In this document: positions 9,221 to 63,751 of the stretch, in pieces | Layout: each line of letters opens with the position of its first letter | Numbering within the stretch: position 1 is the stretch's first letter | Source of the DNA: Blastococcus mobilis | GTDB taxonomy: Bacteria; Actinomycetota; Actinomycetes; Mycobacteriales; Geodermatophilaceae | DNA length: 64,000 bases | Assembly: GCF_900188025.1 (NCBI RefSeq) | Contig: NZ_FZNO01000004.1 | Coordinates: forward strand, 1-64,000 | Reading direction: 5' to 3' | Translations under genes and position numbers: made by a program | The notes under the pieces: model-generated | What the model was told of the DNA's origin: nothing | Databases searched by the model: none | What the model saw: the letters and a program-made list of their open reading frames with translations, nothing else

Positions 9221-9251
9221 GCCAGCGAGCCTCGCACACGAGTCGGCTACC

Positions 9252-40151: not shown

Positions 40152-40334
40152 CGTGCATGTCCTCCAGGCGTCGCGGGGCAACGCCGTCCCCGCCGGATGT
40201 CCGGAGAGATCATGCCTTCCTGCCGTCGAGGAGCCCGCCCGGACCCACCGGCGGCAGGTCACAGGGCAACGGAAGGGTGCGGTGGCCACCGACGCCCCGG
40301 GGCGCCCGCGGACCCCCGTGGGACGTGCCGCCGA

Positions 40335-41072: not shown

Positions 41073-41198
41073 GGAACGCCTCCTGGAGCGGCTCGTCACT
41101 GCCGGGCTGCGGCCGGGCGACGGCCCGATGATCGCAGACCCTCGCGGGGCCCTTGTCCCCGCCGGAGCACCCCTCCCTCCTTTGAAGTGATGACCTTA

Positions 41199-41219: not shown

Positions 41220-41298
41220 CAGGGATGTGGTCCCGAGCACAGTCGGAAGCGCACACCACGGCCTGCCTGCGATCGCCCCCGAACGGACGGTGCCCACC

Positions 41299-43204: not shown

Positions 43205-43222
43205 GAAGGACCCTCCTGCCCC
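43202..43222 (+). repeat. stop-proximal AAGGACCC motif, iol operon copy
   Basis: The stop codon of the aldolase runs straight into GAAGGACCCTCCTGCCCCC. The gap to iolB is 33 bases, the longest in the operon, and consists mostly of this motif. Confidence 0.6.
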
Positions 43223-43237
43223 CGTCGAGGAGTCGCC

Positions 43238-46089: not shown

Positions 46090-46114
46090 CCCACCGTTCC
46101 CGGAGGAGGACCGT

Positions 46115-48189: not shown

Positions 48190-49124
48190 GGATCGCCCTG
48201 GACCCGCAGATGCTGCGCAACGTCCCGCTGCTCGAGCTGCCCGACGTGGTGGCCGGCATGGGCTACGAGTGGATCGAGCTCTCCCCCCGCGAGGACTTCA
48301 TCCCGTTCTTCAAGCACCCGCGGGTGGACACCGCCACGGTGCGGGCCTTGCGGTCGAAGCTGTCCGACGCAGGCGTCGGCGTCACCTCGCTGCTGCCGGT
48401 CATGCGCTGGTCGGGCCCGGGCGAGGTGGAGCGGCAGGCCGCCGTCCGCTACTGGAAGCGGGCCATCGAGATCTGCGTCGAGCTCGGCGCGGACACGATG
48501 AACTCCGAGTTCAGCGGCCGGCCGGAGGCCCCGGAGCTCGCCGAGGCGATGTTCTGGCGGTCGATGGAGGAGCTGCTGCCGATCTTCGAGCGGGAGGGCG
48601 TCAAGCTCGTGCTCGAGCCGCACCCGGACGACTTCATCGAGCTCGGCCACCCGGCGGTCGACATGGTCCGCGGCATCGACTCGCCGTGCGTCAGCTTCCT
48701 GTACTGCATGCCGCACACGTTCCACCAGGGCGACGACGCGGCCGGGATCATCGCCCACGCCGGCGACCTGCTCACCCACGTGCACGTCGCCGACTCGATG
48801 GACCACACCGCCTCCGACGGGCTGCGCTACATCACCAACCCGCCGGGCAACCCCGTCCGCGTCCACCAGCACATGGAGCTCGGGCGCGGCGACGTGGACG
48901 CCGACGAGGCCTTCGCCGCCCTGGCGGGGATCGGCTTCGACGGCGTCCTCACCACCTGCGTCTTCGGGTGGGACGACCAGGCCCGCGAGTCCGGCACGCG
49001 GATGCTCGCCGCCATCCGCGAGCTGGTCTCCAAGCACTTCCCCGGTGACGCGCTCGCCGGTGCCTCCGCTCCCGGACGGCCGAACTTCCCCCAGACACCG
49101 CTCCCCGACGACACCGCTCCTTGA
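48186..49124 (+). CDS. IolH-like sugar phosphate isomerase/epimerase
   Basis: This 312-residue TIM-barrel protein belongs to the xylose-isomerase-like AP2EC family: [43 protein letters not shown] and [12 protein letters not shown] supply the metal ligands. In iol clusters such proteins (IolH, IolI) interconvert inosose isomers so that other inositols can enter the pathway. The ATG overlaps the iolG stop. It is followed nine bases later by the dehydrogenase gene. Confidence 0.82.
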
Positions 49125-49133
49125 GAGGTAGCC

Positions 49134-50627
49134 ATGCCCACCCACATCCCGCACTGGATCGACGGCGCCCGCCGCGAGGGTGCCAGTGGTCGCACCGGAG
49201 AGGTGACCGACTCGGCGACCGGTGAGGTCACCGGCCAGGTCGCGCTCGCCTCGCCCGAGGAGGTCGACGCCGCGGTCGCCGCCGCCTCGGCCGCCTTCCC
49301 GGGCTGGCGCGACACGTCGCTGGCCAGGCGCACGGCGGTGCTGTTCCGCTTCCGGGAGCTGCTCAACGCCCGCAAGCCCGAGCTGGCCGCGATCATCACC
49401 GCCGAGCACGGCAAGGTCCTCGACGACGCCCTGGGCGAGGTCTCCCGCGGCCAGGAGGTCGTGGAGTACGCCTGCGGCGTCCCCTCGCTGGTCCGCGGCG
49501 GGTTCACCGAGAACGCCTCGACCAACGTCGACGTGCACTCGGTCCGCCAGCCGCTCGGCCCGGTGGCGATCATCAGCCCGTTCAACTTCCCGGCGATGGT
49601 CCCGATGTGGTTCTTCCCCATCGCGATCGCCACGGGCAACACCGTCGTCCTCAAGCCCAGCGAGCAGGACCCCTCGGCGGCGCTCTGGATCGCCGAGCTG
49701 TGGAAGGAGGCCGGGCTGCCCGACGGCGTGTTCAACGTCGTCCAGGGCGACAAGGTCGCCGTCGACCGGCTGCTGGAGCACCCCGACATCCGGTCGGTGT
49801 CCTTCGTCGGCTCCACCGCGATCGCCCGCTACGTCTACGAGACCGGCACCCGCAACGGCAAGCGGGTGCAGGCCCTCGGTGGCGCGAAGAACCACATGAT
49901 CGTGCTCCCCGACGCGGACCTGGACCTGGCGGCCGACGCCGCGGTCAACTCTGGGTTCGGCTCGGCCGGCGAGCGCTGCATGGCGATCAGCGCGATCGTC
50001 GCCGTCGGCGGCGTGGGTGACGACCTGGTCGCCCGCATCGCCGAGCGCACCGCCACGCTGCGCACCGGCGACGGCCGGAAGGGCAGCGACATGGGCCCGC
50101 TGATCAGCCGGCGGCACCGGGACCGGGTCGCCTCCTACGTCGACGCCGGCGAGGACGAGGGCGCCAAGCTGGTGGTCGACGGCCGTGAGGTGCAGCCCGA
50201 CGGCGGGGAGAACGGGTACTGGCTCGGCCCGACGCTGCTCGACCACGTGCAGCCGCAGATGAGCGTGTACACCGACGAGATCTTCGGCCCGGTGCTCTCG
50301 GTGCTGCGAGTGGACACCTACGAGCATGCACTGGAGCTGGTGAACAGCAACGAGTACGGCAACGGCACCGCGATCTTCACCAACGACGGCGGCGCCGCCC
50401 GGCGCTTCCAGCACGAGGTGGAGGTCGGGATGATCGGCATCAACGTCCCGATCCCGGTGCCGATGGCCTACTACTCCTTCGGCGGGTGGAAGAACAGCCT
50501 CTTCGGCGACTCCCACGCGCACGGTGCCGAGGGCGTGCACTTCTTCACCCGCGGCAAGGTCATCACCAGCCGCTGGCTGGACCCCAGCCACGGTGGCCTG
50601 AACCTCGGCTTCCCGCAGAACGCCTGA
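49134..50627 (+). CDS. mmsA: CoA-acylating methylmalonate/malonate semialdehyde dehydrogenase (IolA/MmsA)
   Basis: The 497-residue aldehyde dehydrogenase converts malonate semialdehyde to acetyl-CoA, the last step of inositol breakdown. It has ISPFNFPAMVPMWFFPIAIA, FVGSTAIARYVYETG and the catalytic cysteine in GSAGERCMAISA, all typical of the MmsA group. A GAGAGGTAG site precedes the ATG. It is the last gene of the operon and is followed by a strong terminator. Confidence 0.93.
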   Translation: MPTHIPHWIDGARREGASGRTGEVTDSATGEVTGQVALASPEEVDAAVAAASAAFPGWRDTSLARRTAVLFRFRELLNARKPELAAIITAEHGKVLDDALGEVSRGQEVVEYACGVPSLVRGGFTENASTNVDVHSVRQPLGPVAIISPFNFPAMVPMWFFPIAIATGNTVVLKPSEQDPSAALWIAELWKEAGLPDGVFNVVQGDKVAVDRLLEHPDIRSVSFVGSTAIARYVYETGTRNGKRVQALGGAKNHMIVLPDADLDLAADAAVNSGFGSAGERCMAISAIVAVGGVGDDLVARIAERTATLRTGDGRKGSDMGPLISRRHRDRVASYVDAGEDEGAKLVVDGREVQPDGGENGYWLGPTLLDHVQPQMSVYTDEIFGPVLSVLRVDTYEHALELVNSNEYGNGTAIFTNDGGAARRFQHEVEVGMIGINVPIPVPMAYYSFGGWKNSLFGDSHAHGAEGVHFFTRGKVITSRWLDPSHGGLNLGFPQNA

Positions 50628-50686: not shown

Positions 50687-51517
50687 TCAGAGGGTGAAGG
50701 CGGTGCGGAAGCGGTCGAGGGCCCGCGCCGGATCGCCGGAGGCCCAGCCCTCCAGAGCCACGACGCCGGTATAGCCGAGCCGGCCGAGGGCGGCCGCCAC
50801 CGCCGGGTGGTGGATCTCCCCCGTGCCCGGCTCGCAGCGGCCGGGGACGTCGGCGACCTGGATCTCGCCGATCAGCGGCAGGGCCCGTTCCACGAGCGCC
50901 ACGAGGTTCCCCTCGCCGATCTGCGCGTGGTACAGGTCGAGGTTGAGCCGCAGGTGCGGGCTGCCCACCGCCTCCACCAGGGCGATCGTGTCGGCGGCGC
51001 GGGCGAACGGCGTGCCCGGGTGGTCGACGGCGGTGTTGAGGTTCTCCAGCGTGAAGACCCGCCCGGCCCGCTCCCCCAGCCTGGCCAGCTGCTCCAGCGT
51101 CCGCGCGGCGGTCAGCCACATCGCCGGGGTCACCACCTCGGCGGGGACGACCGGCAGCCCCCGGCCGTCCAGCCCGGTCCCGTGCACGTTGAGCCGCGGA
51201 CAGTCCAGCCGCTCGGCGACGGTGAGGGACTGCGCGGCGGTGCGCAGCAGCTCCGCGGCGCCGTCCGGGTCGGCCAGGGTGCCGCTGACGTACCCGGTCA
51301 TGGAGGAGAAGGTCGCGCCGGTCCTCGTGAGCTCGTCGACGTCCTTCGCCGTCCAGTCCCAGATCTCCACCTCGAAGCCGGCGTCGGCGATGCGCCGCAC
51401 CCGCTCGGCGAACGGCAGGTCGAGGAAGAGCATCTCGGCCGAGGCCGCCAGACGAAGGACCCCGTCCCCCCCACCCCGCGCGAGCTCGGGGCGGTGCCCT
51501 GGACGGGGCCGGCTCAC
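50687..51517 (-). CDS. hydroxypyruvate isomerase-like TIM-barrel protein
   Basis: The 276-residue protein matches the hydroxypyruvate isomerase (Hyi)/AP2EC TIM-barrel family: MLFLDLPFAERVRRIADAGF, VEIWDWTAKD, VFTLENLN, LNLDLYHAQI and EIQVADVPGRCEPGTGEI carry the metal ligands. The N-terminal 20 codons from GTG 51517 are made of the inverted 56-bp repeat; relatives begin near LRLAAS, at codon 21. No ATG or GTG exists at that point, so the repeat-derived start is probably really used. The GTG overlaps the stop of the upstream dehydrogenase. Confidence 0.78.
   Translation of the reverse strand: MSRPRPGHRPELARGGGDGVLRLAASAEMLFLDLPFAERVRRIADAGFEVEIWDWTAKDVDELTRTGATFSSMTGYVSGTLADPDGAAELLRTAAQSLTVAERLDCPRLNVHGTGLDGRGLPVVPAEVVTPAMWLTAARTLEQLARLGERAGRVFTLENLNTAVDHPGTPFARAADTIALVEAVGSPHLRLNLDLYHAQIGEGNLVALVERALPLIGEIQVADVPGRCEPGTGEIHHPAVAAALGRLGYTGVVALEGWASGDPARALDRFRTAFTL
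51455..51510 (-). repeat. 56-bp hairpin repeat, copy C, inside a coding sequence
   Basis: This inverted copy of the hairpin element differs from copy A at 9 of 56 positions. One inner stem pair changes from T-A to C-G, which keeps the pairing. It is read in frame as the first part of the isomerase gene (roughly codons 3-21). Confidence 0.8.
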
Positions 51518-52512
51518 TTCTCCACCTCGTCGATCCGCACCGGGTGGCCCGAGCGCACGGACTCGGCCGCTGCCAGCGCGATCGCCAGGGCGGCGCGGGC
51601 GTCCTCGCCGGTCGCCCGGGCCGGGGTCCCGGTGCGGACGGCGTCGACGAAGGCGGCCAGCTCGGCGGTGTAGGCGTCCGGGAAGAGTTCCTGGTCGCCG
51701 CGGACGGTCTCGACCAGCCGCCCGGCCGGCCCGGAGAAGGCCATCCCGCTGCGCCGGCCGTCGCCCATCGTCGCCATCCCGCCGGAGCCGAGCACCTCAC
51801 CGCGGACGTCGTAGCCGTAGGCGGCCTCGAAGCAGGCCTCGGCCACTGCCATGGCCCCGTTGTCGAACCGCACCGTGACCACCGCTGTGTCGAGCAACCC
51901 GCGGTCCCGCCACGCCGGCTCCACGAGCGCGTCCCCGGTCGCGAAGACCTCCACGGCCTCGCCACCGGGGTTGAGGAACCGCAGCGTGTCGAAGTCGTGG
52001 ATGAGCGTCTCGAGGAAGATCGTGTCGGGCAGGACACGGGACGGGTCGAAGCCGCCGGGGTCGCGGGTCAACGAGCGCAGCAGCCGGGGGGTCCCCAGGG
52101 TGCCGGCGTCGAGCAGCACCCGGGCGGCCCGCCAGTCGGCGGCGAACCGGCGGTTGAAGCCCACCTGCAGGACGACGCCCGCGGCGCGCGCCGCGTCGAT
52201 GGCGCGGGCGGCGTCCGGGAGGGTGACCGCCATCGGCTTCTCGCAGAAGACGTGCCGGCCCGCCGCCGCGGCGGCCACGACCAGGTCGGCGTGGGTGCGA
52301 GCCGGCGCCGCGATGACGACGGCCTCGACGGCCGGGTCGTCCCAGAGCTGCGCCACGTCGGTGCAGGAGCGGTCCGCGCCGAGCGCCCCGGCCAGCCGCT
52401 CGGCGGCACCCGGCGCGGGGTCGACGACCGCGGCCAGCCGCGCGGACGGCAGGCGCCGGGCAAGTGTCTCGGCGTGGAAGGCGCCCATCCGCCCCGACCC
52501 GACGAGGGCCAC
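51514..52512 (-). CDS. Gfo/Idh/MocA-family dehydrogenase
   Basis: The protein has 332 residues from GTG 52512, which starts right at the Rossmann motif VALVGSGRMGAFHAETLARR. The lysine of the EKP motif is in VFCEKPMAVT, followed by QVGFNRRFAADW and the catalytic-histidine segment ETLIHDFDTLRFL. This is the IolG-like branch, acting on an inositol or inosose. The much longer open frame upstream is antisense-style shadow of the P450 gene. It is transcribed between the P450 and isomerase genes, with hairpin repeat B just upstream. Confidence 0.85.
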   Translation of the reverse strand: MALVGSGRMGAFHAETLARRLPSARLAAVVDPAPGAAERLAGALGADRSCTDVAQLWDDPAVEAVVIAAPARTHADLVVAAAAAGRHVFCEKPMAVTLPDAARAIDAARAAGVVLQVGFNRRFAADWRAARVLLDAGTLGTPRLLRSLTRDPGGFDPSRVLPDTIFLETLIHDFDTLRFLNPGGEAVEVFATGDALVEPAWRDRGLLDTAVVTVRFDNGAMAVAEACFEAAYGYDVRGEVLGSGGMATMGDGRRSGMAFSGPAGRLVETVRGDQELFPDAYTAELAAFVDAVRTGTPARATGEDARAALAIALAAAESVRSGHPVRIDEVEK

Positions 52513-52607: not shown

Positions 52608-52631
52608 GGGGGGCAGGGGGGTCCTTTCTCA
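52608..52631 (-). repeat. stop-proximal AAGGACCC motif, P450 copy
   Basis: On the minus strand the P450 stop codon runs into TGAGAAAGGACCCCCCTGCC and then a C run, nearly identical to the motif after the M23 gene at 35729-35752. Confidence 0.65.
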
Positions 52632-54887
52632 CAGGTCCAGCACCAATCGGTCCGTGCGGGCACGGGACACGCAGATCATCATGCAGTCGTTCGCCTCTCT
52701 CTCGTACGGACCGAGGACGGAGTCGCGGTGGTCGGGCACGCCGTCCAGGACGGGGGTCTCGCAGGTGCCGCAGGTGCCCTCGGCGCACGAGGAGAGGACG
52801 CCGACCCGGGCCTCCTCGACCACCGACAGGATCGAGCGGTCCGGCGGGACGGTCAGGGTGAGCCCGCTCTGCTCGAGCACGACCTCGAACGCCTCGGACC
52901 GCACCGGCTCGGTCAGCGGCCGGGCCGCGAACCGCTCGACGTGCAGGGCGCCGGCCGGCCAGGCGCCACAGCGCTGCTCGACGGCGGCCAGCAGCGGCTC
53001 CGGGCCGCAGCAGTACACGCGGGTGTCGGCCTGCGGCGTGCCCAGCAGCCCCTCCAGGTCGAGCAGCCCGGCCTCGTCCTGCGGGCGGACCGACACCCGG
53101 TCGCCGTACTGCGCCAGCTCGTCGAGGAAGGCCATCGAGGCCCGCCGCCGGCCGCCGTACACGAGCCTCCAGTCGGCGCCGGCGGCCTCCGCGGCCCGGA
53201 TCATCGGCAGGATCGGCGTGATGCCGATGCCGCCGGCGATGAACAGGTAGCGGGGTGAGGCGACCAGGGGGAAGTTGTTGCGCGGCCCGCGCACCCGGAC
53301 GGTGTCCCCGACCTCGAGCCGGTCGTGCACGTACCGCGAGCTGCCGCGGCCGGCCGGGTCGCGCAGCACTCCCAGGCGGTACTCGGAGTGGTCGGCGGGG
53401 TCGCCGCACAGCGAGTACTGCCGGGTGGGGGCCTCGCCGAGCACCAGGTCGACGTGCGCCCCGGGCTTCCACGGCGGCAGTGGGCGGCCCCCGGGCTCGC
53501 GCAGGCTCAGGACGACGACCCCGTCGGCGGCCTCCTGCTTGGCGGCGACCCGGGCCTCGGTCTCGAACTCCGAGGTGGCCAGGGTGACCGTCGTCGTCCG
53601 GTGGGAGACGGCCTCGACGTGCGGGCGGCGTGCGGACCGGCCGAAGGTGCCCGGCAGGTTCTTCCAGACGTACATGTTGGGCGAGCTCGGGTAGAAGGTC
53701 GGCGGGCCGGCGAGCTCGTAGTCCCCCAGGACGGGCAGGGCCTCCTCGAGCGCGATCCGCGCCTCGAGCCGGGCCAGCGGAGCACCCAGACAGCCGTGCA
53801 CGCCCTCGCCGAAACCCAGGTGCCGGCCCCGGGGCCGGGTGATGTCGAAGGTGTCGGGGTCGGGAAACTGGCGCTCGTCCCGGTTGGCGGCGCCCATCAC
53901 GAGCACGACCCGGCCGCCGGCGGGGATGGTGACCCCGTGCAGGGTGACCTCGCGCGACGTCGTCCGGGCGGTGAGCTGCAGGGGCGTGATCAGGCGCAGA
54001 GCCTCCTCCACCGCGGCCGGGAGCAGCGACGGGTCGGCCTGCAGGAGCGCGCGCTGGCCGGGATTCTCGGCCAGCAGCGTGAACAGCGTGCCGGTCAGGC
54101 CGGCGGTGGACTCGACCCCACCGAGGAAGAGGATCATCATCAGGCCGCTGACCTCGGAGTTCGGTGTGACCTCCTCGCCCACGAACGGGACGCCGTCGAT
54201 GTCGGCCTGGACGAACCTCGTGACCAGGTCGTCCCGGGCGGCGCGGCGTCGGTCGTCGAGCAGGTCGATGAAGAACTGCTGCACACCGGCGGTGGCCGCC
54301 CGCGCCACCGGGGTCAGGTGGGGCGTGCCGGGCACCCGGTCCTTGAGCTCGTGGGTCCAGTGCTCGAGCTGCTCGCGCCGCGCCCGCTCCAGGGGGTCCG
54401 GGTCGTGCCGGCTCGGCAGACCCATCAGGTGGAAGAAGACGTCGAAGGGCATGGGCCAGGCCAGCTCCTGGGCGATGTCCACCGTGCCTCTGCCGACCGC
54501 GCCGCGGTCCCGCCAGGAGGCGACCAGGTCGCGGACCACCGTGCGGATGCCGTCCTCCAGCTGGGCGATCCGGCGCGGCAGGAAGTAGGGCTGCACCACC
54601 GAGCGGACCTGGTCGTGCCGGGGGTTGTCCATGCTGCCGATCGAGCCGGGCGGCACCTGCTCCAGGCGGCTGTCGTCGATGTCCATGCCCTCGAAGCTGC
54701 GGAACGTGTCCGCATCCAGCGCCGCCCCGCGCACGTCCTCGAAGCGGGTCAGGGCGTACCAGCCCCACCGTTCGCTGTAGTAGACGGGCGCCTCCTCCCG
54801 CATCCGCCGGTACACCGCGAACGGGTCGGACGTGTAGAAGTCGGGCGCGAACGGGTTGTAGTCGATCGCCGTGGCGGTGCTGGCCAT
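52629..54887 (-). CDS. self-sufficient cytochrome P450 (P450-reductase-ferredoxin fusion)
   Basis: The 752-residue protein joins three domains. The P450 domain (1-400) has the I-helix FLGGVESTAG at 255-263, EALR near 295 and the heme-binding FGEGVHGCLG with Cys366. The reductase (about 430-650) has RQYSLCGDP for FMN and GGIGITPILPM for NAD(P)H. The C-terminal ferredoxin has four cysteines (SCAEGTCGTCE plus NDCMM). This is the CYP116B-type layout; such enzymes hydroxylate or O-dealkylate substrates with NAD(P)H and O2. It heads a leftward operon with a dehydrogenase and an isomerase, under a LacI operator. Demethylation of a methyl inositol is my inference. Confidence 0.9.
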   Translation of the reverse strand: MASTATAIDYNPFAPDFYTSDPFAVYRRMREEAPVYYSERWGWYALTRFEDVRGAALDADTFRSFEGMDIDDSRLEQVPPGSIGSMDNPRHDQVRSVVQPYFLPRRIAQLEDGIRTVVRDLVASWRDRGAVGRGTVDIAQELAWPMPFDVFFHLMGLPSRHDPDPLERARREQLEHWTHELKDRVPGTPHLTPVARAATAGVQQFFIDLLDDRRRAARDDLVTRFVQADIDGVPFVGEEVTPNSEVSGLMMILFLGGVESTAGLTGTLFTLLAENPGQRALLQADPSLLPAAVEEALRLITPLQLTARTTSREVTLHGVTIPAGGRVVLVMGAANRDERQFPDPDTFDITRPRGRHLGFGEGVHGCLGAPLARLEARIALEEALPVLGDYELAGPPTFYPSSPNMYVWKNLPGTFGRSARRPHVEAVSHRTTTVTLATSEFETEARVAAKQEAADGVVVLSLREPGGRPLPPWKPGAHVDLVLGEAPTRQYSLCGDPADHSEYRLGVLRDPAGRGSSRYVHDRLEVGDTVRVRGPRNNFPLVASPRYLFIAGGIGITPILPMIRAAEAAGADWRLVYGGRRRASMAFLDELAQYGDRVSVRPQDEAGLLDLEGLLGTPQADTRVYCCGPEPLLAAVEQRCGAWPAGALHVERFAARPLTEPVRSEAFEVVLEQSGLTLTVPPDRSILSVVEEARVGVLSSCAEGTCGTCETPVLDGVPDHRDSVLGPYEREANDCMMICVSRARTDRLVLDL

Positions 54888-54945
54888 GTCTGTCTCCGCG
54901 GGCGCGTGGTGGCGACGGGCGGAAGCGCTGGACCGGCAGCCGCTC

Positions 54946-54957
54946 TAAAGCGCTTCA
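54946..54957. promoter_or_regulatory. LacI-type operator upstream of the P450 gene
   Basis: TAAAGCGCTTCA carries the AAAGCGCTT core of LacI-family operators and lies 59 bases before the P450 start. It matches the perfect palindrome at 56120-56133 in front of the other LacI-controlled gene set. Confidence 0.65.
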
Positions 54958-54982
54958 AGGCCAGGGTGCCGAGTGACTGGCG

Positions 54983-56071
54983 TCACGTCAACCCATGGTC
55001 AGATCGAACTGATCCCCGACGGGACCCGCCCCGGGGGTCATCGAGCTCAGCGTCCGGCGGCGCCCCGGTTGTCCCCCGAACCACCAGGCGCGGCGGGACG
55101 ACGACCTCGCGGTGCTCCATCCTGCCGCCGTCGAGCCGCTCGACCACCGCGGCGACCGCGTGCCGCATCAGCTGCTGGGACTCCTGACTGACGGTGGTCA
55201 GGTCCACGTGCGCCAGCCGGGAGAGGGGGCTGTCGTCGTAGCCCACCACGGAGACCGTCCCCGGGACCCCGACGCCGCTGCGCAGCAGCGTGTCCAGCAC
55301 CCCCACCGCGGAACGGTCGTTGTACGCGACCACGGCCGTCGGCGGGAGGTCCGTCGCGAGGAGCGCCCGCGCCGCGCGCGCCCCGGACTCCTCGCCATGG
55401 TCACCGGGCATGACGTGCAGGTTCTCGCCGAGCCGGTGACGGCGCATCGCCCGCTGGTACCCGCGACGCCGGCCGGCCGAGATGGCCCCGGGGCCGCCGT
55501 CGACGTAGGTGATGCGACGGTGCCCCAGGGCGACCAGGTGGTCGACCGCCAGGGCGACGCCCTCGTCGTCGGCGGCGCGGACGACGTCGACGCCCGCCGA
55601 CGGGACGGCCCGGCCGACAGCCACCACGGGCAGCTGCCGGTCGAGCGCGCCCAGCCGGGCGGCCGGGGCCTCGGGCCCGAGGAGGACCAGGGCCTCGCAG
55701 CGCGAGTCGAGGAGCGTCTCGACCGCCCGCCCCTCGTCCCGGGTGCGGGTCATCGTGCTGAGCACCAGGTCGTATCCGTGCTCCTCGGCCGCCTCGTGGA
55801 CGTCCTCGACGAGCTGGGCGTGGAAGGTGCTGCGGACGTCCATCAGGACGCCGATCAGCCTGCTGCGCCGGCGGGCCAGCAGGCTCGCGGCGCGGTCGGG
55901 CCGATACCCCAGCCGGGCGGCGGCGTCGAGCACGCGCTCGCGGGTGACGCTGCTCGGCCCCGCGGAGCCGCGCAGCACGAGCGACGCCGTCGCCGGCGAG
56001 ACCCCCGCCGCGGCCGCGACGTCCTGCAACCGGGGACGACGCACCGACTCGGCTGCACTCACGACGACCAC
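54983..56071 (-). CDS. LacI-family transcriptional regulator
   Basis: The 362-residue regulator has the N-terminal helix-turn-helix RLQDVAAAAGVSPATASLVL with the hinge helix region RPDRAASLLARRRS, and a periplasmic-binding-like sensor domain (IGVLMDVRSTFHAQLVEDVH onward; VVGYDDSPLSRLAHVDLTTV near the end). It lies between the two gene sets that carry AAAGCGCTT operators and likely represses both, and itself, until a sugar or inositol derivative binds. Confidence 0.88.
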   Translation of the reverse strand: MVVVSAAESVRRPRLQDVAAAAGVSPATASLVLRGSAGPSSVTRERVLDAAARLGYRPDRAASLLARRRSRLIGVLMDVRSTFHAQLVEDVHEAAEEHGYDLVLSTMTRTRDEGRAVETLLDSRCEALVLLGPEAPAARLGALDRQLPVVAVGRAVPSAGVDVVRAADDEGVALAVDHLVALGHRRITYVDGGPGAISAGRRRGYQRAMRRHRLGENLHVMPGDHGEESGARAARALLATDLPPTAVVAYNDRSAVGVLDTLLRSGVGVPGTVSVVGYDDSPLSRLAHVDLTTVSQESQQLMRHAVAAVVERLDGGRMEHREVVVPPRLVVRGTTGAPPDAELDDPRGGSRRGSVRSDHGLT

Positions 56072-56119
56072 CCACTCCCTTGACGCGACCCTTGCACCCT
56101 GCTGAGATCGGCGTCACCA

Positions 56120-56133
56120 TTAAAGCGCTTTAA
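56120..56133. promoter_or_regulatory. perfect LacI-type operator palindrome
   Basis: TTAAAGCGCTTTAA is an exact 14-base palindrome with the LacI-family core. It lies 48 bases before the LacI start and 98 bases before the start of the rightward dehydrogenase gene, so it can control both. Confidence 0.8.
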
Positions 56134-56231
56134 GGACATCAGCGGTCGACCGCTCACCCGCGGAGCGTGCCACGGCCGCGGAGGCACCCACGCATCGCCG
56201 GAGCCCCGTCCACCCGAGGAGAGGAACAGCC

Positions 56232-57473
56232 ATGTCGCGACGACGACTGTCCGTGGCGGTGATCGGGGCCGGGATGGCCGGCCGCAGCCACGCCGCCGGG
56301 TACCGCCAGGTCAACACCGTCTTCGGAGAGGGACTGCCGCCCATCCGGCTGGCCGCCGTCGCCGACGCCAACGAGACGCTGGCCAGGGATGCCGCCCGCC
56401 GGTACGGCTTCGAGAAGGCCGTCTTCAGCTGGGAGGAGATCGTCGAGGACCCCACGATCGACGCGGTCAGCATCGTCGTCGGCAACGCGCTGCACCGGCC
56501 GATCGCCGAGGCGTTGATCGCCGCCGGCAAGCACGTGCTGTGCGAGAAGCCCCTGGCCGGCTCGATGGAGGACGGCCGAGCCATGGTCGCCGTCGAGGAG
56601 GACGCCGACGTCGTCACCGCGGTCGGCTACACGTATCGCCGGTCCCCGGCCATCGCGGCGATCCGCGACCATGTGCGCAACGGTGAACTCGGGGACTTGT
56701 CACTGTTCCACGGCCGGTACTGGTGCGACTACGCCTGCGACCCGCGCAGCCCGCTGACATGGCGATTCAGGGGAGGTCTCGGCTCCGGCGCACTCGGCGA
56801 CATCGGCGCGCACGTGATCGACGCCGCGGAGTACCTGTGCGGGCCGATCGTCGCGGTGTCCGGCGGCGCGGTCTCGATCCAGATCCCCAAGCGCCCGCTC
56901 CCCCTTGGCGCAGTCGTGGGGCACGGCGCCGCTCCGGTCAGCGACGAGGTCGGCGAGGTCGAGAACGAGGACACCGCGATGTTCACTGCGCGGTTCGAGT
57001 CCGGCCTGACGGGGTCGTTCTCCGTTTCCCGCACCGTATTCGGCGTGCCGAACGGCCTGGGGTTCGACGTCTACGGGCTGGACGGCCGCGCCGCGTTCGA
57101 CTTCCACCGGCCCGCGGAGTACCTGTTCGACGACGCCCAGCCCGAGGCCCGTACGCGCGGCGTCCGCCAGGTGATCGTCGGCCCGCAGATGCCCTACTTC
57201 CACGGCGGCTACCCCATGGAGGCCCCGGGCGTCGGCATCGGCAACCAGGAGGCCTTCATCTACCAGTGCCGGGCGTTCCTGGATCAGATCGCCGGCACGC
57301 CCGACCCGTTGCCCGCCAACGCCTCCTTCGCCGACGCACTCCACACCATGGCGATCATCCAGGCCGTCGTCCGGTCGTCCCAGTCCGACGGCGGAACCGT
57401 CGAGGTCGCCTCGGTGAGCTCCGGCATGCCCGTCGAGGCCGACGCTCCGGCCAACCCTGCGCCCCCCGCCTGA
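56232..57473 (+). CDS. Gfo/Idh/MocA-family dehydrogenase
   Basis: The 413-residue NAD(P)-dependent protein has the Rossmann motif VAVIGAGMAGRSHAAGY, the EKP motif in VLCEKPLAGS, and the catalytic segment around GDIGAHVIDAAEYL. It is longer than IolG and belongs to a separate branch whose members often oxidise inositol derivatives or glycosides (3-keto formation). A GAGGAG site precedes the ATG. It opens the rightward LacI-controlled operon with a TIM-barrel isomerase 31 bases downstream. Confidence 0.87.
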   Translation: MSRRRLSVAVIGAGMAGRSHAAGYRQVNTVFGEGLPPIRLAAVADANETLARDAARRYGFEKAVFSWEEIVEDPTIDAVSIVVGNALHRPIAEALIAAGKHVLCEKPLAGSMEDGRAMVAVEEDADVVTAVGYTYRRSPAIAAIRDHVRNGELGDLSLFHGRYWCDYACDPRSPLTWRFRGGLGSGALGDIGAHVIDAAEYLCGPIVAVSGGAVSIQIPKRPLPLGAVVGHGAAPVSDEVGEVENEDTAMFTARFESGLTGSFSVSRTVFGVPNGLGFDVYGLDGRAAFDFHRPAEYLFDDAQPEARTRGVRQVIVGPQMPYFHGGYPMEAPGVGIGNQEAFIYQCRAFLDQIAGTPDPLPANASFADALHTMAIIQAVVRSSQSDGGTVEVASVSSGMPVEADAPANPAPPA

Positions 57474-57504
57474 CCACCTCCACGACCAGAAGGCGAGAAC
57501 TCCC

Positions 57505-58503
57505 ATGACTCTCAAGCTCGGCGCCTACACCGCCTGCCTGCACGACCGCCCCCTCGGCGAGGCCCTCGACGTCCTGCAGGCCAACGGCCTGACGTCGGTC
57601 GAGGTCAACACCGGCGGCTTCATCCCCTCCCCGCACTGCCACGTCGACCTGCTGCTCTCCTCCGAGCAGGCCCGGCGGGACTACCTCGACCTGTTCGCCT
57701 CCCGTGGGATGGAGCTGAGCGGGCTGAACTGCAACGGCAACCCGCTCAACCCGCTGCCCGGCGTCGGCCCCAAGCACGCCGACGACCTCCGCCGCACCAT
57801 CGAGCTCGCCGGGCTGCTCGGGGTCAGGAACATCGTGACGATGTCGGGCACGCCCGGGTCGGACCCCGACGCCAGGTACCCGTCCTGGGTGGTCAACCCG
57901 TGGGACGGCGTCTACATGGACGTCCTGGACTACCAGTGGGGCGTGGCGGTCGACTTCTGGAAGGAGATCGACGCCCTCGCCCGCGCCCACGACGTCCGGG
58001 TCGCCATCGAGATGCACCCGCACAACCTGGTGTTCTCGCCGGTGACCCTGCGGAAGCTGGTCGAGCTGACCGGCGCGACGAACCTCGGCGCCGAGATGGA
58101 CCCGTCGCACCTGATGTGGCAGGGCATGGACGTCGCCGCCTGCATCCGCGACCTGGGTCCGCTGGTGTTCCACGCTGCGGCCAAGGACGCGATGATCACG
58201 CCCGGGGTCGACATCCGCGGCGTGCTCGACACCTCGTTCACGCGCGTGCCCGCCGACGCCGCCGACAAGGTCCCCACCGGCTACGGCTTCTGGTGCAACG
58301 CGTGGCCGGAGGACCCGGCGTGGCGGTTCGTGGCCGTCGGCGCCGGCCACGACGTCGGCTGGTGGACCGGGTTCCTCCGCGCGCTGGCCGAGGTCGATCC
58401 CGACATGGCGGTCAACATCGAGCACGAGGACGCCGCCTACGACCGCCTCGAGGGCCTCGCCCTCGCCGCCGAGAACCTGCGCGCCGCTGCCGAGAAGATG
58501 TAG
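57505..58503 (+). CDS. sugar phosphate isomerase/epimerase, TIM barrel
   Basis: The 332-residue AP2EC-family protein shows YTACLHDRPLGEAL at the start, then GLNCNGNPLNP, IEMHPHNLVFSP and GAEMDPSHLMWQG, giving the usual Glu/Asp/His metal site. Proteins next to Gfo/Idh/MocA enzymes of this kind typically isomerise or eliminate keto-inositols or keto-glycosides. It probably acts on the product of the upstream dehydrogenase. The ATG follows an AAGGCGAG site. Confidence 0.82.
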   Translation: MTLKLGAYTACLHDRPLGEALDVLQANGLTSVEVNTGGFIPSPHCHVDLLLSSEQARRDYLDLFASRGMELSGLNCNGNPLNPLPGVGPKHADDLRRTIELAGLLGVRNIVTMSGTPGSDPDARYPSWVVNPWDGVYMDVLDYQWGVAVDFWKEIDALARAHDVRVAIEMHPHNLVFSPVTLRKLVELTGATNLGAEMDPSHLMWQGMDVAACIRDLGPLVFHAAAKDAMITPGVDIRGVLDTSFTRVPADAADKVPTGYGFWCNAWPEDPAWRFVAVGAGHDVGWWTGFLRALAEVDPDMAVNIEHEDAAYDRLEGLALAAENLRAAAEKM

Positions 58504-58610
58504 CGCCCGGAGGCCCTCCTGCGCGGACGGGGTCTCGGGGCACCCCGCAGCGGACCGCGTCGTCGTCGTGGTTGTTGACCGACGACTCGGCGGCTCGCGA
58601 GGCTTGCGGG

Positions 58611-59446
58611 ATGACCACGGTCCCGGACGTAGCACTCACCAACGGTGTCGCGATCCCCCAGCTCGGATTGGGCACCGCCCGGCTCCCCGACGAGGAGATG
58701 CGGCGGATCGTCCGCGAGGCGCTCGAGGTCGGCTATCGGTTCGTCGACACCGCCGCCAGCTACGAGAACGAGCGGGGTGTCGGGCAGGTGATCGCGGACT
58801 CGGGCCTGCCGCGCGAATCGGTGTTCGTCTCCACCAAGCTGCGCGGTTGAGAGCAGGGGTTCGACTCGGCGAAGGAGGCGCTGGGGTCGAGCCTGGACCG
58901 GCTCGGGCTGGACTTCGTCGACCTCTACCTCATCCACTGGCCGCTGCCCCGGCTCGACCGCTACGTCGAGTCCTGGCTCGCCATGGAGGAGCTCCTCGCC
59001 GAGGGTCTTACCCGCGCCATCGGCGTCTCCAACTTCCTCCCCGAGTACCTCCACCGGCTCGCTACCGCCTCCTCGACCGTGCCGGCGGTGAACCAGATCG
59101 AATGCATCCGTGGGAGCCGCAGCTCGAGCAGCGCGCCGACGACGCCCGCCGGGGCATCGTCACCGAGTCGTGGTCCCCGCTGGCCAACGGCGGGGAGCTG
59201 CTGCGGCACCCGGTGCTCGCGAGGATCGGCGCCCGGCACGGCCGAACCCCCGCGCAGGTGATGCTGCGCTGGCACGTGCAGCAGGGCCTGGTGACGTTCC
59301 CGAAGGCGTCCAGCCGCGGCGGGCTGGTCGAGAACCTCGACGTCTTCGACCTCACCCTGACCGAGGAGGACATGGCCGACATCGCCACGCTCGCCGACGG
59401 CACCCGGGTCGACGGGCAGTACCCGGACACGTGGGAGGAGTTCTGA
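58611..59446 (+). pseudogene. aldo/keto reductase, broken by a stop and a frameshift
   Basis: The reading frame from ATG 58611 encodes a normal aldo/keto reductase: NGVAIPQLGLGTARLPDEEM, FVDTAASYENE and VSTKLRG, then TGA at 58848-58850. It continues in the same frame with the LDRLGLDFVDLYLIHWP segment. Near 59102 one base is missing, shifting the frame; after it comes HPWEPQLEQRADDARRGIVT, then the normal C terminus ending WEEF. The catalytic Asp, Tyr, Lys and His are all still encoded. It would have reduced a sugar aldehyde or ketone in the LacI-controlled pathway. Confidence 0.8.
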
Positions 59447-59550
59447 GCCCTGCTGGATGACGGGTTTTTCGTGGGATGTGCTGCCTTGTCGGCCCGGCAG
59501 GCCCCCGTCAGGCTCGACGGCACGTCACCCCGCACCGGAAGGCCGACGCC

Positions 59551-60516
59551 ATGACCACCCCCGTTCCCGGCCGGATCGCTTCCGGTTGGTTCGCCGCGGA
59601 GGACTGCCGCCTGGAGGAGTTCCGTGCGGTCGTCGAGACCACCACCGACCTGGCCGACTACCCCCACGCCGACGAGGTGCGGGAGAACGTCCTGGTCTAC
59701 GGTGCCCGGCTGCGCGACTCCGTCGCCACCCCCGACGGGCGCCGGGAGGTGCAGGCCGAGCTGGCCCGCGCGCTGACCGACGGTCCGGGGATCGTCGCCT
59801 TCACGGGCGCCTTCCCCGACACCGGCGTCGTCGACCGGGCCACCGCCGTCTTCGAGGCGATGATCGCCGAGCAGAAGGCGGCCGGTGTCGCGGCCGGGGA
59901 CCACTTCGCCAAGCCCGGCGCCAACGACCGCGTCTGGGGAGCACTGGACAAGTTCGCCGTCCGGGACCCGGAGGCCTTCGCCGCGTACTACGGCAACGAC
60001 GTGATCGCGCTGGTCTCGCAGGCGTGGCTGGGCCGCGGCTACCAGCTCACCAGCCAGGTCAACGTGGTCAACCCCGGCGGGCAGGCCCAGGTCGCCCACC
60101 GCGACTACCACCTCGGCTTCATGTCCGAGGAGCAGGCCCTGGCCTACCCGGCGCACGTGCACCGGCTGTCCCCCGTCATGACCCTGCAGGGCGCGGTCGC
60201 GCACTGCGACATGCCCGTGGTGACCGGCCCGACGATGTACCTGCCGCACTCGCAGAAGTACGCCCCGGGCTACGTCGCCTTCCACCAGCGGGAGTTCACC
60301 GCGTACTTCGACGAGCACTTCGTCCAACTGCCGCTGCGCAAGGGCGACGCGGCCTTCTTCAACCCGGCTCTGTTCCACGGCGCCGGCACCAACCGGTCGG
60401 CCGACGTCCGCCGCATGGCCAACCTGCTGCAGGTCTCCTCGGCGTTCGGCCGGGCGATGGAGGTGGTGGACCGGACGGCGATGTGCCGCGCGCTCTACCC
60501 CGTCCTGCAGGCCTGA
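59551..60516 (+). CDS. phytanoyl-CoA-dioxygenase-like Fe(II)/2-oxoglutarate oxygenase, truncated
   Basis: The 321-residue product belongs to the PhyH family of iron- and 2-oxoglutarate-dependent oxygenases. The iron ligands HxD are in VAHRDYHLGF, and the distal His and the Arg that binds 2-oxoglutarate are in LFHGAGTNRSADVRR, so the active site is complete. The frame then meets TGA at 60514-60516 but runs on in frame for another 73 coding codons to 60738. The missing tail suggests a recent nonsense mutation. The enzyme may still work. Hydroxylation or O-demethylation of an inositol ether would fit the context. Confidence 0.75.
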   Translation: MTTPVPGRIASGWFAAEDCRLEEFRAVVETTTDLADYPHADEVRENVLVYGARLRDSVATPDGRREVQAELARALTDGPGIVAFTGAFPDTGVVDRATAVFEAMIAEQKAAGVAAGDHFAKPGANDRVWGALDKFAVRDPEAFAAYYGNDVIALVSQAWLGRGYQLTSQVNVVNPGGQAQVAHRDYHLGFMSEEQALAYPAHVHRLSPVMTLQGAVAHCDMPVVTGPTMYLPHSQKYAPGYVAFHQREFTAYFDEHFVQLPLRKGDAAFFNPALFHGAGTNRSADVRRMANLLQVSSAFGRAMEVVDRTAMCRALYPVLQA

Positions 60517-60738
60517 AAGGCCGCCGGCGCCGCCGAGCACACCCTGCGCAACGTCATCGCCGCCTCGGCGGAGGGCTACGCCTTCCCGACCAACCTCGAT
60601 CGCGACCAGCCGATCGGTGGCCTCGCCCCCGAGACCCAGGCCGAGCTGGTCTGGCGAGCCGTGCAGGAGGGCTGGACCCCTGGCGCGCTGGACGCCGAGC
60701 TGACCGCCCAGGCCGAGCGGCACACCAGCGCGCCGTGA
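60517..60738 (+). pseudogene. severed C-terminal part of the PhyH-like oxygenase
   Basis: After the TGA the same frame reads KAAGAAEHTLRNVIAASAEG, YAFPTNLDRDQPIGGLAPET and WRAVQEGWTPGALDAELTAQ with strong G/C at third positions, then stops at TGA 60736. It has no start codon of its own and is best seen as the former C terminus of the oxygenase. Confidence 0.75.
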
Positions 60739-60837: not shown

Positions 60838-61653
60838 TCAGCGCTTCAGCTCGTGCGAGAGCTCGGCGAGTTCCTGGCCGCCGGCCATCTCCGTCGTCAG
60901 CTCCTCGAGGGAGACCTCGGAGCGCTTCTTGTCCAGCACCCGACGACCGAGCTTCAGGATGATGAAGTGGTCGCCCACCAGGTAGGCGTGGTGCGGGTTG
61001 TGGGTGATGAAGACGACGCCCAGGCCCGCGTCACGGGCGGCCGCGGTGTACTTGAGCACCACCCCCGACTGCTTGACCCCCAGGGCAGCGGTCGGCTCGT
61101 CCAGGATCAGGACCCGCGCGCCGAAGTACACGGCCCGGGCGATCGCGACACACTGCCGCTGCCCGCCGGACAGGGTGCCGATCGGCTGGTTGATGTCCTT
61201 GACGAAGATGCCCATCTTCTGGAGCTCGGCGTCGGCGATCTCCCGCATGGCCTTGATGTCGAGCGGGGCCATGGGGTACTTGCCCTTGCGGATCTCCGAG
61301 CCGAGGAAGAAGTTGCGCCACACCTCCATGAGGCCCACCACCGCGAGGTCCTGGTAGACGGTGGCGATCCCGGCGTCGAGTGACTCCCGCGGTGAGGAGA
61401 AGTGCCGCTCCTTGCCGTCGACCCGGAGCGTGCCCTCGGTGTGCGGGTGCAGACCGGAGATGATCTTGATCAAGGTGGACTTGCCCGCGCCGTTGTCGCC
61501 CAGCACGCAGGCGACCTCTCCGGCGTTGACCGTCAGGTTGACGCCCTCGAGAGCCCGGATGGCGCCGTAACTCTTGCCGCAGCCCTCCATCTCGACCAGT
61601 GGCGTGCCGGCCTTGAGATCGGGTGCGGCGTGCTCGGCGATGGTGTCGGTCAT
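60838..61653 (-). CDS. sugar ABC transporter ATP-binding protein (second inositol-region transporter)
   Basis: The 271-residue single-domain ATPase has Walker [11 protein letters not shown]-loop VYQDLAVV, signature LSGGQRQ, Walker [13 protein letters not shown] and [15 protein letters not shown]. It is clearly paralogous to the ATPase at 37316-38116. The ATG is one base from the permease stop. It powers uptake of the sugar bound by the protein at 62783-63751. Confidence 0.9.
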
Positions 61654-61654
61654 G

Positions 61655-62719
61655 TCACTTCCTCTGGGCCGCGTAGTTCTTGACGTACAGGTTGACGAGG
61701 ACGGCGAGCAGCAGCATCACGCCGAGGAAGGTCCGGAACCAGTTCGGGTCCCATCCCGCGAAGACGATGCCCTGGGTGGTCATGCCGAAGATGAAGGCGC
61801 CGAATGCTGACCCGACCGCCGAGCCGTAGCCGCCCGTCAGCAGCGCACCCCCGACGACCGCGGCGATGATGTAGATGAACTCGTTGCCCACGCCGAGGCC
61901 GGACTGCACGGAACTGAAGTTGAAGAGCAGGTGCATGCCCAGGAACCAGGCGAGGAAGGCCACGCCCATGAACAGGCCGATCTTGACCTTCGGCACGGGC
62001 ACGCCGACCGCGCGCGCGCTGGCCTGATTGCCCCCGGCCGCGGTGATCCAGTTGCCCGTGCGGGTGCGCAGCAGCAGCCAGGAGGCGACGGCCACGAAGA
62101 AGAACCACCACAGGACGGTGACCTTGAGGGTCATGAACCCCAGGGGGATGTCGGAGGCGAAGATCGCGCGGGCGGAGTCGAAACCGTCGAGCGCACTGGC
62201 GTTCGGGGTGGCGACCGTACCGGTGACCAGCTTGGTGATCCCCAGGTTGAGGCCCTGGAGGATGAAGAAGGTGCTCAGCGTGATGAGGAAGCTGGGGATG
62301 CCGGTCCGCATCACGAGGTAACCGTTGACGAAGCCGATGGCGAGCGCGACCACCAGGCTGAAGATGACGCCGACCCACATGTTCAGGCTGAACTGATAAG
62401 TGATCATCGCTGCAGCCAGCGCAGACGTGGCCACCGCCACCCCGGACGACAGGTCGAACTCGCCGCCGATCATCAACAGCGCGACCCCGACGGCCACGAT
62501 GCCGATCGTGGAGCTGGCATAGAGAACGGTGGCGAAGGCGGGCAACGTGCGGAACGGCTCTGCCACCGCATAGAAGAAGAGGAAGATCGCAATGGCCGCG
62601 GCCAGCGCCCCTACCTCGGGTCGGGCCAGGACGCGGGACAGGACCGATCGCTGCGTGCGCGCCGGCGCGGCAGCCTTGGGTGGGGGGGCCGACGGCTTCG
62701 TCGCCACGGATGAGCTCAT
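61655..62719 (-). CDS. sugar ABC transporter permease (second inositol-region transporter)
   Basis: The permease has 354 residues from ATG 62719, which has a GGAG site upstream. It has eight to ten membrane helices with [20 protein letters not shown] and [17 protein letters not shown], the conserved segments of RbsC/FrcC-type permeases. It is paralogous to the permease at 38113-39171 and unlike it has an ordinary start codon. A strong hairpin separates it from the binding-protein gene. Confidence 0.9.
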
Positions 62720-62743
62720 CGCTTGCTCCAAGGGGGACGGGGC

Positions 62744-62775
62744 GGGGGGAGCCGGGTGTCCCCCCGGCTCCCCCC
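62744..62775 (-). promoter_or_regulatory. intercistronic hairpin between binding protein and permease
   Basis: The arms GGGGGGAGCCGGG (62744-62756) and CCCGGCTCCCCCC (62763-62775) pair exactly around a 6-base loop. It lies 7 bases after the binding-protein stop on the minus strand. Such hairpins often protect the upstream mRNA or reduce read-through, giving more binding protein than permease. Confidence 0.65.
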
Positions 62776-62782
62776 AGAGGGA

Positions 62783-63751
62783 CTACCGGGTGTTGTTCTC
62801 GGCGTACTTGACGATCGGGCCGATGTTCGTCTCGTCGACGATGGACGGACCGGTGAGGACCGGCTGACCACCACCGATGTCGTTCCCGTTGGTGAGGTTG
62901 AGCCACAGGGCAGTCACGGCCAGGTAGCCCTGCACGTAGGGCTGCTGGTCGACGGAGAAGGCGATGTCACCGTTCTCGATCGCCTTGGCGACGTCGGCGT
63001 TGAGGTCGAAGGTGATGATCTCCGCCTGACTGCCGGTGTCGGACGTGGCCTGCTGGGCCGCCTGCGCGATCGGCGCACCGAGTGTGACGATGTGGGTCAC
63101 CGACGGGTCCTGCTGCAGCTTGGAGCCGATGGTCTGCTGCACGGAGGGGAGGTCGGTGCCCGTGACGTAGAGGATCTCAGTGTTCGGGAAGCCCTCCGTC
63201 ACGCCGGCGCAGCGGGTCTCGAGGGCGACCTGACCCTGTTCCTGGATGATGCAGAGGGCCTTCCCGCCGCCGTCCTGCCCGATCCGCTCACCCACGGTGC
63301 GGCCGGCGAGCTGCTCGTTCGAGCCGAAGTACATCGGCACGTCGTAGTTCTGGTAGTCGTTGATGCCGGAGTTGAACGCGACGATGGGGATGCCGGCCTC
63401 GGCGACTCGCTGGGCAGCCGGGCCGACCTGATCGGGATACGCCAGGGTCAGTGCGATGCCGGCGACGTCACTGTCGACCGCGTTCTGCACCAGCGTCGCC
63501 ATCTCGCCCGCGTCCGGGTCGTTCGAGTAGTTCAGCGTGATGTTGTGCCTCTCGGCTGCGGCCTCCGCGCCGGCGCGGATCTTGTCCCAGAAGGTGTCAC
63601 CCGGGGCCTCGTGGGTGATCATCGCGATGGTGTACTCCTGGCCGGCGTCGACACCCTCGTTCTGGGCACCACCCTCACTGCTGCACGCGGCCGCCAGCGC
63701 GACGGCGCTGACCGCCGCCAGCACCTTCAGCGGTCTCCCGATTCTGCTCAT
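62783..63751 (-). CDS. sugar ABC transporter substrate-binding lipoprotein (second)
   Basis: The 322-residue protein has a lipoprotein signal peptide (VLAAVSAVALAAACSSEG) and a ribose-class binding fold: YTIAMITHEAPGDTFW, GIALTLAYPDQVGPA, GIPIVAFNSGIND, ITFDLNADVAKAI and IAFSVDQQPYVQGYLA. It is related to the binding protein at 39168-40151 but diverged in the ligand-facing segments, which suggests a different inositol-like ligand. It is the first gene of the leftward transporter operon. Confidence 0.9.
   Translation of the reverse strand: MSRIGRPLKVLAAVSAVALAAACSSEGGAQNEGVDAGQEYTIAMITHEAPGDTFWDKIRAGAEAAAERHNITLNYSNDPDAGEMATLVQNAVDSDVAGIALTLAYPDQVGPAAQRVAEAGIPIVAFNSGINDYQNYDVPMYFGSNEQLAGRTVGERIGQDGGGKALCIIQEQGQVALETRCAGVTEGFPNTEILYVTGTDLPSVQQTIGSKLQQDPSVTHIVTLGAPIAQAAQQATSDTGSQAEIITFDLNADVAKAIENGDIAFSVDQQPYVQGYLAVTALWLNLTNGNDIGGGQPVLTGPSIVDETNIGPIVKYAENNTR

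Follow-up and report, generated by a model that had tools for sequence, protein, structure and literature searches.

The window analysed here, i.e. the whole stretch of 64,000 nt, lies on contig G000:C73 of the Blastococcus mobilis genome assembly (G000; 5.09 Mb in 88 contigs), and contains a gene for a predicted self-sufficient cytochrome P450 close to an operon for myo-inositol catabolism (iol operon). A preliminary description of this DNA had placed a complete iol operon ahead of a second gene set, and Pfam and NCBIfam bear this out: iolA, iolB, iolC, iolD, iolE, iolG and J-type genes stand together. Between the operon and a second sugar ATP-binding cassette (ABC) importer, two divergent gene sets are located (Table 1): a minus-strand set for a LacI-family regulator, the P450, a Gfo/Idh/MocA dehydrogenase (IolG2) and a TIM-barrel isomerase (Hyi), and a plus-strand set for a second dehydrogenase (Gfo3), a second TIM barrel (TIM3), an aldo/keto reductase (AKR) and a PhyH-family oxygenase (PhyH). 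The fusion of P450, reductase and ferredoxin in one frame and the second importer were found as described. The two dehydrogenases and two TIM barrels claimed for positions 52629-60738 are also present, but the genes for IolG2 and Hyi lie outside that interval, downstream of the P450 on the same strand. The arrangement, together with the recurrence of the pairing in other bacterial families, suggests that the P450 trims a modified, probably methylated, plant inositol before its catabolism.

Table 1. Predicted genes and operator sites in the P450-iol region of the window
Feature	Position	Strand	Remarks
CUT2 binding protein	39168-40289		Upstream of iol operon
GntR	40335-41099		Upstream of iol operon
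iol operon	41227-50627	+	iolC, iolJ-like aldolase (Cgl0159 family), iolB, iolD, iolE, iolG1, TIM barrel, iolA; Pfam, NCBIfam
Hyi, TIM-barrel isomerase	50687-51517	-	Nearest: hydroxypyruvate / 2-oxo-tetronate isomerases; adjoins iolG2 in relatives
IolG2, Gfo/Idh/MocA, inositol-dehydrogenase-like	51514-52512	-	4-base overlap with Hyi start; start codon of IolG2 uncertain
Self-sufficient P450	52629-54887	-	Fused to reductase-ferredoxin, 752 residues in one frame; P450, NAD-binding and 2Fe-2S domains
Second operator copy (predicted)	54945-54958		2 mismatches; between LacI and P450
LacI-family regulator of P450 module	54983-56071	-	Pfam; adjoins P450 in relatives
Predicted operator, perfect palindrome TTAAAGCGCTTTAA	56120-56133		Between divergent LacI and Gfo3; also at the P450 locus of relatives
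Gfo3, Gfo/Idh/MocA dehydrogenase	56232-57473	+	
TIM3, xylose-isomerase-like TIM barrel	57505-58503	+	No NCBIfam family
AKR, aldo/keto reductase	58611-59446	+	Broken
PhyH-family 2-oxoglutarate oxygenase	59476-60516	+	C-terminus missing
Second CUT2 ABC importer	60838-63751	-	ATPase, permease, binding protein (SBP2)

The fused P450 and its linkage to iol genes

The predicted polypeptide comprises a P450 domain (residues ~1-415) and a phthalate-dioxygenase-reductase-type flavin/NAD/2Fe-2S part (~430-752), and matches over its full length the solved fused P450s 6kbh (442 bits) and 6laa (433 bits), which we take to be CYP116B-type class VII self-sufficient P450s. In class VII (P450-PFOR), a single chain carries a P450 fused to flavin, NAD and C-terminal 2Fe-2S domains, and this architecture is present in the window P450. 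By rough counts, identity to 6kbh is ~31% in the P450 part (122 of 395 query residues) and ~48% in the reductase part. A CYP family is defined by about 40% or more identity of the P450 domain, and because the P450 part is only ~31% identical to 6kbh, the window domain is placed by sequence outside CYP116 under this rule; with the P450 domain alone, other solved P450s ranked first. The motifs of functional P450s, i.e. the heme cysteine, ExxR, and the acid-alcohol pair in helix I, are represented by C366, E295/R298 and E259-S260, respectively, which are invariant across 15 aligned sequences, as predicted for a functional P450. In a tree of 46 chosen P450 rows (omitting L011, L016 and L024 among the aligned orthologues and several control P450s), a long branch (100/100) parts the orthologues from other P450s, and the P450 of genome G357 is placed between the two groups at a weaker fork with a long-branch warning; row L102 of this tree was wrongly framed, its locus starting <1,500 bases ahead of the match, so that its branch is an artefact, the root is upset, and counts of changes from this tree are unreliable.

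The P450 was found in 20 of 112 genomes of the family, of which 18 were clear at E <= 1e-170, one (G095) was partial, and one (G094) was represented by the reductase end only, cut by a contig end. A gene for iolD (E <= 1e-150) is present in all 20, compared to 13 of the 92 family genomes without the P450 (Fisher p 9e-14, uncorrected for kinship). In a class-wide sample of 394 genomes, G000 scored 845 bits and G357 534 bits, and all other listed matches reached at most 323.2 bits. A scan of named genomes yielded 26 P450 loci, comprising 15 in family genomes already counted and 11 new loci, the latter from a Nocardioidaceae bin, Pseudonocardia (two), Nocardioides, Marmoricola, a Frankineae bin, Nostocoides, Phycicoccus (two) and two Chloroflexi bins.

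Of the resulting set of 31 P450-bearing genomes (20 of the family and 11 others, partial P450s included), 23 carry iol core genes on the same contig at a distance of up to 20 kb, i.e. 15 of the 20 family genomes (G052 and G096 counted by iolA, their iolD being on another contig) and eight of the 11 others (L077, L079, L085, L086, L090, L091, L094, L095; L079 counted by an iolD above the curated cut-off). In the other eight (G111, G043, G097, G060, G098, L076, L089, L093), a contig end is too near on at least one side for a judgement. As a control, 24 genomes with other P450s (289-323 bits; P450s listed at E <= 1e-85) were considered; 18 are without iolD, and in none of the six informative genomes is a listed P450 near iolD, the two genes being on the same contig but >600 kb apart in two genomes and on different contigs in four (contig ends unchecked). 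The linkage extends across Geodermatophilaceae, Pseudonocardia, Nocardioidaceae and Intrasporangiaceae with differing gene orders; for example, in Pseudonocardia L094 the P450 is inserted between iolA and iolB, together with a LacI and a TIM barrel, and in L090, L091 and L095 it is one to three genes away from iolC. The P450 is thus very probably linked to inositol catabolism, as judged from gene neighbourhoods. Homologues consistently located away from iol genes, named in the preliminary description as evidence against its proposal, were not the pattern observed, G357 and the Chloroflexi bin G509 (see below) being the ones that stand apart.

The form of the locus varies. P450 and reductase are encoded by two adjacent genes in G034, G052 and G060, and the order in G098 is P450, iolG2, and then a reductase fragment. 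Compact loci (G034, G052, G096) contain genes for Hyi, IolG2, P450, LacI and an importer, and no PhyH, AKR or close Gfo3 was found in these three; G034, G096 and G060 contain a TIM3-like gene. The large form with the divergent operon is represented by the Geodermatophilus loci and the window, with AKR missing in G111. In G094, whose locus is cut by a contig end, a PhyH (83%) is located between iol genes and Hyi, and PhyH relatives are also present in the Marmoricola, Frankineae and Nostocoides loci (beside a second iol-like set). By these gene contents, the P450 is more constant than PhyH in the iol neighbourhood.

Further genes were observed at some of these loci. A second LacI gene (56-60% identical where seen) is located on the reductase side of the P450 in nine of the 11 other fused-P450 loci (L008, L009, L011-L015, L017 and L018 of the set L008-L018), between P450 and iolG2 where read. 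In G111 (L045, 10552-12668), genes for an intradiol ring-cleaving dioxygenase and an iron-containing dehydrogenase are located within the P450 module between PhyH and TIM3, perhaps for a cyclitol route via trihydroxybenzene. In Nostocoides (L133, 4330-15418), a second iol-like set (relatives of iolC, J, B and D, 40-49%) with Hyi (65%) and PhyH (62%) lies behind the first set and perhaps represents a parallel pathway for another cyclitol. In Marmoricola (L130, 2793-15001), several very large genes follow the P450.

Predicted operator and accessory genes

The palindrome TTAAAGCGCTTTAA was found by reading the intergenic stretches of the window and its relatives. At up to two mismatches it occurs at two places only in the 5.09 Mb of G000, i.e. 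at the predicted operator and the second copy (Table 1), and the reversed pattern does not occur; because of these two counts, a chance origin of the sites is unlikely. The search at up to one mismatch covered 21 of the 30 other P450-bearing genomes (outside the search were G039, G043, G060, G094, G095, G096, G097, G098 and G509, and also G357). It gave 20 places in 16 of the 21 genomes, 18 of which (in 15 genomes) are at the P450 locus, including three Intrasporangiaceae and the Frankineae bin. The remaining two places overlap in Pseudonocardia G505 (L171, G505:C47:205000-224999, site at 10455), with an inositol-type CUT2 importer, iolE/G/H-like genes (by eye), LacI genes and a PhyH as neighbours. 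No copy at up to one mismatch was found in G506, G508, G512, G513 and G504; Nocardioides has a two-mismatch palindrome, Marmoricola a different one, and Pseudonocardia L077 a two-mismatch copy at the P450. The reversed pattern, as a control, was found in none of the 22 genomes. Both the position of the palindrome and its confinement to the locus are as predicted for a LacI-regulated unit, and the earlier term 'LacI-controlled' gains support from the candidate operator and its second copy.

Two other palindromes were observed. A second perfect 14-base palindrome, AGCGGTCGACCGCT, is located near the operator in the LacI-Gfo3 gap (56141-56200 region) and was absent from the palindromes listed for the corresponding gaps in G042 and G111; the gap of the second LacI in G042 contains the palindrome CTAGAACGTTCTAG.

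The plus-strand operon appears damaged. The AKR gene is present, as had been described, but it is not intact: its frame is interrupted by an in-frame TGA at 58848 and by a frame shift further downstream, compared to a single open frame of 278 codons in all nine relatives for which both ends were found. The gene is also intact at the locus of Geodermatophilus obscurus DSM 43162 (L075, G048). Similarly, the PhyH-like oxygenase is present but terminates at a stop (60514-60516) that removes ~80 C-terminal residues relative to five aligned relatives; codons matching those of the relatives continue in frame beyond this stop, and the residues of the PhyH-family motif H-x-D...H are retained in the shortened protein. 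This second oxygenase is therefore probably dead in this strain. The clustering of three lesions in two neighbouring genes, while the P450 set showed none, suggests that the accessory Gfo3-TIM3-AKR-PhyH operon is decaying in this strain, with sequencing error as an alternative. The preliminary description had argued from the presence of two different oxygenases, and this argument loses force because PhyH is truncated and AKR is broken here and because neither was found in the compact loci.

Among the inositol-related enzymes, the window iolD scored above the curated TIGR04377 cut-off, and iolE (138.5 bits, cut-off 290) and iolG1 (292 bits, cut-off 540) scored below theirs; the TIM barrel inside the iol operon is, by its place, presumably IolH/IolI-like. 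IolG2 reached 296.6 bits against TIGR04380 (IolG inositol 2-dehydrogenase; cut-off 355), as a relative and no certified member of that family, and its top solved relatives are 3ezy ('Dehydrogenase') and 4hkt ('Inositol 2-dehydrogenase'); by these comparisons IolG2 is closest to inositol dehydrogenases. Gfo3 is near levoglucosan dehydrogenase (277 bits, cut-off 650) and scyllo-inositol/L-glucose dehydrogenase. Against solved structures, TIM3 yielded two weak relatives and PhyH none.

The importer is predicted to be of the inositol CUT2 type. Its binding protein SBP2 matched 4ru1 (ACEI_1806, myo-inositol binding protein) with 318.9 bits, and a structure model of SBP2 (predicted local distance difference test score, pLDDT, 80.4) gave 52% identity to 4ru1 by Foldseek, so that both sequence and fold are close. 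The protein of 4ru1 is termed a verified myo-inositol transporter in the part of the source consulted (PMC10747050).

For formaldehyde, a gene for S-(hydroxymethyl)mycothiol dehydrogenase (above the curated cut-off) with a metallo-beta-lactamase-fold partner is located ~16 kb from the module (G000:C73:71246-72942). It was rejected as evidence for methyl removal because it sits beside purF also in P450-free genomes of the Blastococcus bin: purF is within 1.5 kb of this gene in ten of 14 other loci of the genus, none of these ten genomes contains the P450 at E <= 1e-170, and in the remaining four loci purF was unseen in a short flank. A second such dehydrogenase gene (above the cut-off) with a metallo-beta-lactamase-fold partner is encoded elsewhere in G000 (L169, G000:C66:20000-39999, at 7887-9583), surrounded by what by eye resembles a glycine-betaine/sarcosine demethylation cluster; two copies (E <= 1e-120) were found only in G000 among the 16 genomes of its genus.

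Proposed pathway and alternatives

In legumes, conifers and many other plants, methyl inositols belong to the abundant soluble carbohydrates. The module may represent a peripheral branch of myo-inositol catabolism with its own LacI regulator, for which we infer the substrate, the removal of a methyl group, the order of steps and the direction of regulation as follows. A modified inositol, most likely an O-methyl inositol (D-pinitol, ononitol or sequoyitol), would be taken up, probably via the inositol-type CUT2 importer, and LacI would release the operator. With electrons from NAD(P)H passing through its own flavin and 2Fe-2S domains, the fused P450 would hydroxylate the O-methyl carbon, and the hemiacetal would collapse to free inositol and formaldehyde. 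IolG2 would oxidise the released isomer to an inosose, which the Hyi-type TIM barrel would convert to 2-keto-myo-inositol for degradation by the adjacent iol operon; for D-pinitol, the P450, IolG2 and Hyi would thus account for demethylation, dehydrogenation and isomerisation. The formaldehyde would enter the general mycothiol-dependent pathway of the cell, and Gfo3-TIM3-AKR-PhyH may form a side branch that probably serves another isomer or position. In our best reading, the P450 would thus make a modified inositol, most likely a methyl inositol of the pinitol kind, accessible to the iol route; we consider the chances of this explanation, and of methyl removal in particular, about even. The full proposal, i.e. 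a previously undescribed pathway for O-methyl inositols in soil actinobacteria, in which a self-sufficient P450 demethylase with its own LacI and operator feeds the iol route, in fused and split forms across several families, is tentative, at a probability of roughly 0.45.

Several observations weigh against this proposal. The evidence does not single out an O-methyl inositol as the substrate over other modified inositols, and the structure model of the P450 (mean pLDDT 61.7) is too poor to read the pocket. No formaldehyde gene was seen in the operons flanking the operator. Hyi scored far below the cut-offs of both families to which it was compared (125 bits against TIGR03234, hydroxypyruvate isomerase, cut-off 353; 110 bits against NF043033, 2-oxo-tetronate isomerase, cut-off 325), and no entry named inosose isomerase is among its 23 solved relatives. 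Neither the window importer nor the iol operon is preceded by a copy of TTAAAGCGCTTTAA (up to two mismatches); control of these by the LacI of the module is therefore not supported, and both are probably outside it. In L077, L086, L090, L091, L094 and L095, no close relatives of iolG2 and Hyi follow the P450, and since loci of Intrasporangiaceae, Nocardioides and Pseudonocardia thus contain the P450 without close IolG2 and Hyi neighbours, the predicted three-step scheme is not universal; there, a different inositol dehydrogenase present in the cell would have to accept the product. In G096 and G097 no reductase is located beside the P450, and the P450 frame of G096 contains a stop. Finally, a distant relative of the P450 in G357 (52% identity) is ~650 kb away from iolD, and no iolD was found in the P450-bearing Chloroflexi bin G509 (the bin of L089).

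The same neighbourhood evidence would fit a P450 (and, in relatives, a PhyH) that hydroxylates a deoxy-inositol such as quercitol or viburnitol to an inositol for the iol route; no methyl group would be involved, the lack of a formaldehyde gene beside the operator would be explained, and ring hydroxylation would equally account for the IolG2 and iol genes that follow. Deoxy-inositols are, as general knowledge, less common in plants than methyl inositols. The known carbohydrate P450 (PMC10033563) and the growth-initiating P450-reductase pair (PMC11530827) remove O-methyl groups, as far as the parts of these sources consulted describe them, and we regard deoxy-inositol hydroxylation as unlikely.

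Slightly less likely again is the dealkylation of another inositol conjugate, i.e. a rhizopine-like methylated amino-inositol or an alkyl or aryl ether. In its favour, MocA is the namesake of the Gfo/Idh/MocA family, and rhizopine catabolism combines mocDEF with a binding protein and the inositol pathway; against it, inspection of the compact loci (G034, G052, G096) revealed no recognisable aminotransferase or deaminase (gene calls against window proteins; otherwise the first 70 residues by eye).

It is improbable that the P450 acts on an unrelated (e.g. aromatic methoxy) compound and is simply carried along with the iol genes, as might be suggested by a CYP116B self-sufficient P450 in aromatic catabolism (PMC8449657, as far as consulted), by the ring-cleaving dioxygenase and iron-containing dehydrogenase inside the G111 module, and by the loci of G357 and G509, because the linkage holds in several families with differing gene orders, the palindrome is also found at an inositol-type importer locus in Pseudonocardia, and none of the six iolD-bearing control genomes shows the linkage.

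Significance and comparison with known systems

If the demethylation proposal is true, a non-aromatic polyol would join the growth substrates opened by a self-sufficient P450, and the use of methyl inositols by soil bacteria could be tested with a defined gene, its regulator and operator, and strains available from culture collections under their names. Should the methyl step prove wrong, the association of this P450 group with inositol genes would still make it a useful genome marker. Among the matches listed in the open-licence literature, no publication described a P450 or a demethylase acting on inositols, and none dealt with bacterial genes that remove the methyl group of methyl inositols; one on rhizobia and root exudates (PMC5789663) contains the word pinitol. 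The preliminary description knew of no P450 with this role; for inositols this holds among those matches, but P450 O-demethylation of a carbohydrate, 6-O-methyl-D-galactose, has been described (PMC10033563). In so far as these sources were consulted, P450 demethylation of a methoxy sugar is already known, and an oxygenase ahead of the inositol pathway has been modelled for rhizopine.

In porphyran-using marine bacteria, the 6-O-methyl-D-galactose demethylase converts its substrate to galactose and formaldehyde (PMC10033563), and resembles the window in that a P450 acts in the catabolism of a methoxy carbohydrate (as proposed here). As far as that account was seen, it represents a P450 with redox partners for an algal sugar in marine Flavobacteriia, whereas the window encodes a fused enzyme beside inositol genes in a member of the Actinomycetota, with demethylation as its putative reaction. 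The P450-reductase pair PbdAB of Rhodococcus jostii RHA1 initiates growth on methoxybenzoates by O-demethylation (PMC11530827); according to the part consulted, it is similar to the proposed role in its combination of a P450 and cognate reductase for growth via O-demethylation, and differs in its aromatic substrates and its two separate proteins. The catabolism of rhizopine (moc) in rhizobia requires mocDEF, and its model combines a ferredoxin oxygenase complex with the inositol pathway (PMC10107442, and the title of Bahar 1998 cited there); from what was seen of this source, it shares with the window an oxygenase set, a binding protein and the inositol pathway, with an inositol derivative as substrate (proposed here), and differs in a MocR regulator and in the three-gene mocDEF in place of a fused P450. 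The iol clusters surveyed in PMC9430895 have the core iol genes in common with the window, and the terms 'P450' and 'pinitol' each returned zero hits in the main text of that survey. The CYP116B-type class VII P450s (6kbh, 6laa) share the domain order P450, flavin, NAD and C-terminal 2Fe-2S over the full length, whereas the window P450 is located with inositol genes, and some of its relatives are split into two genes.

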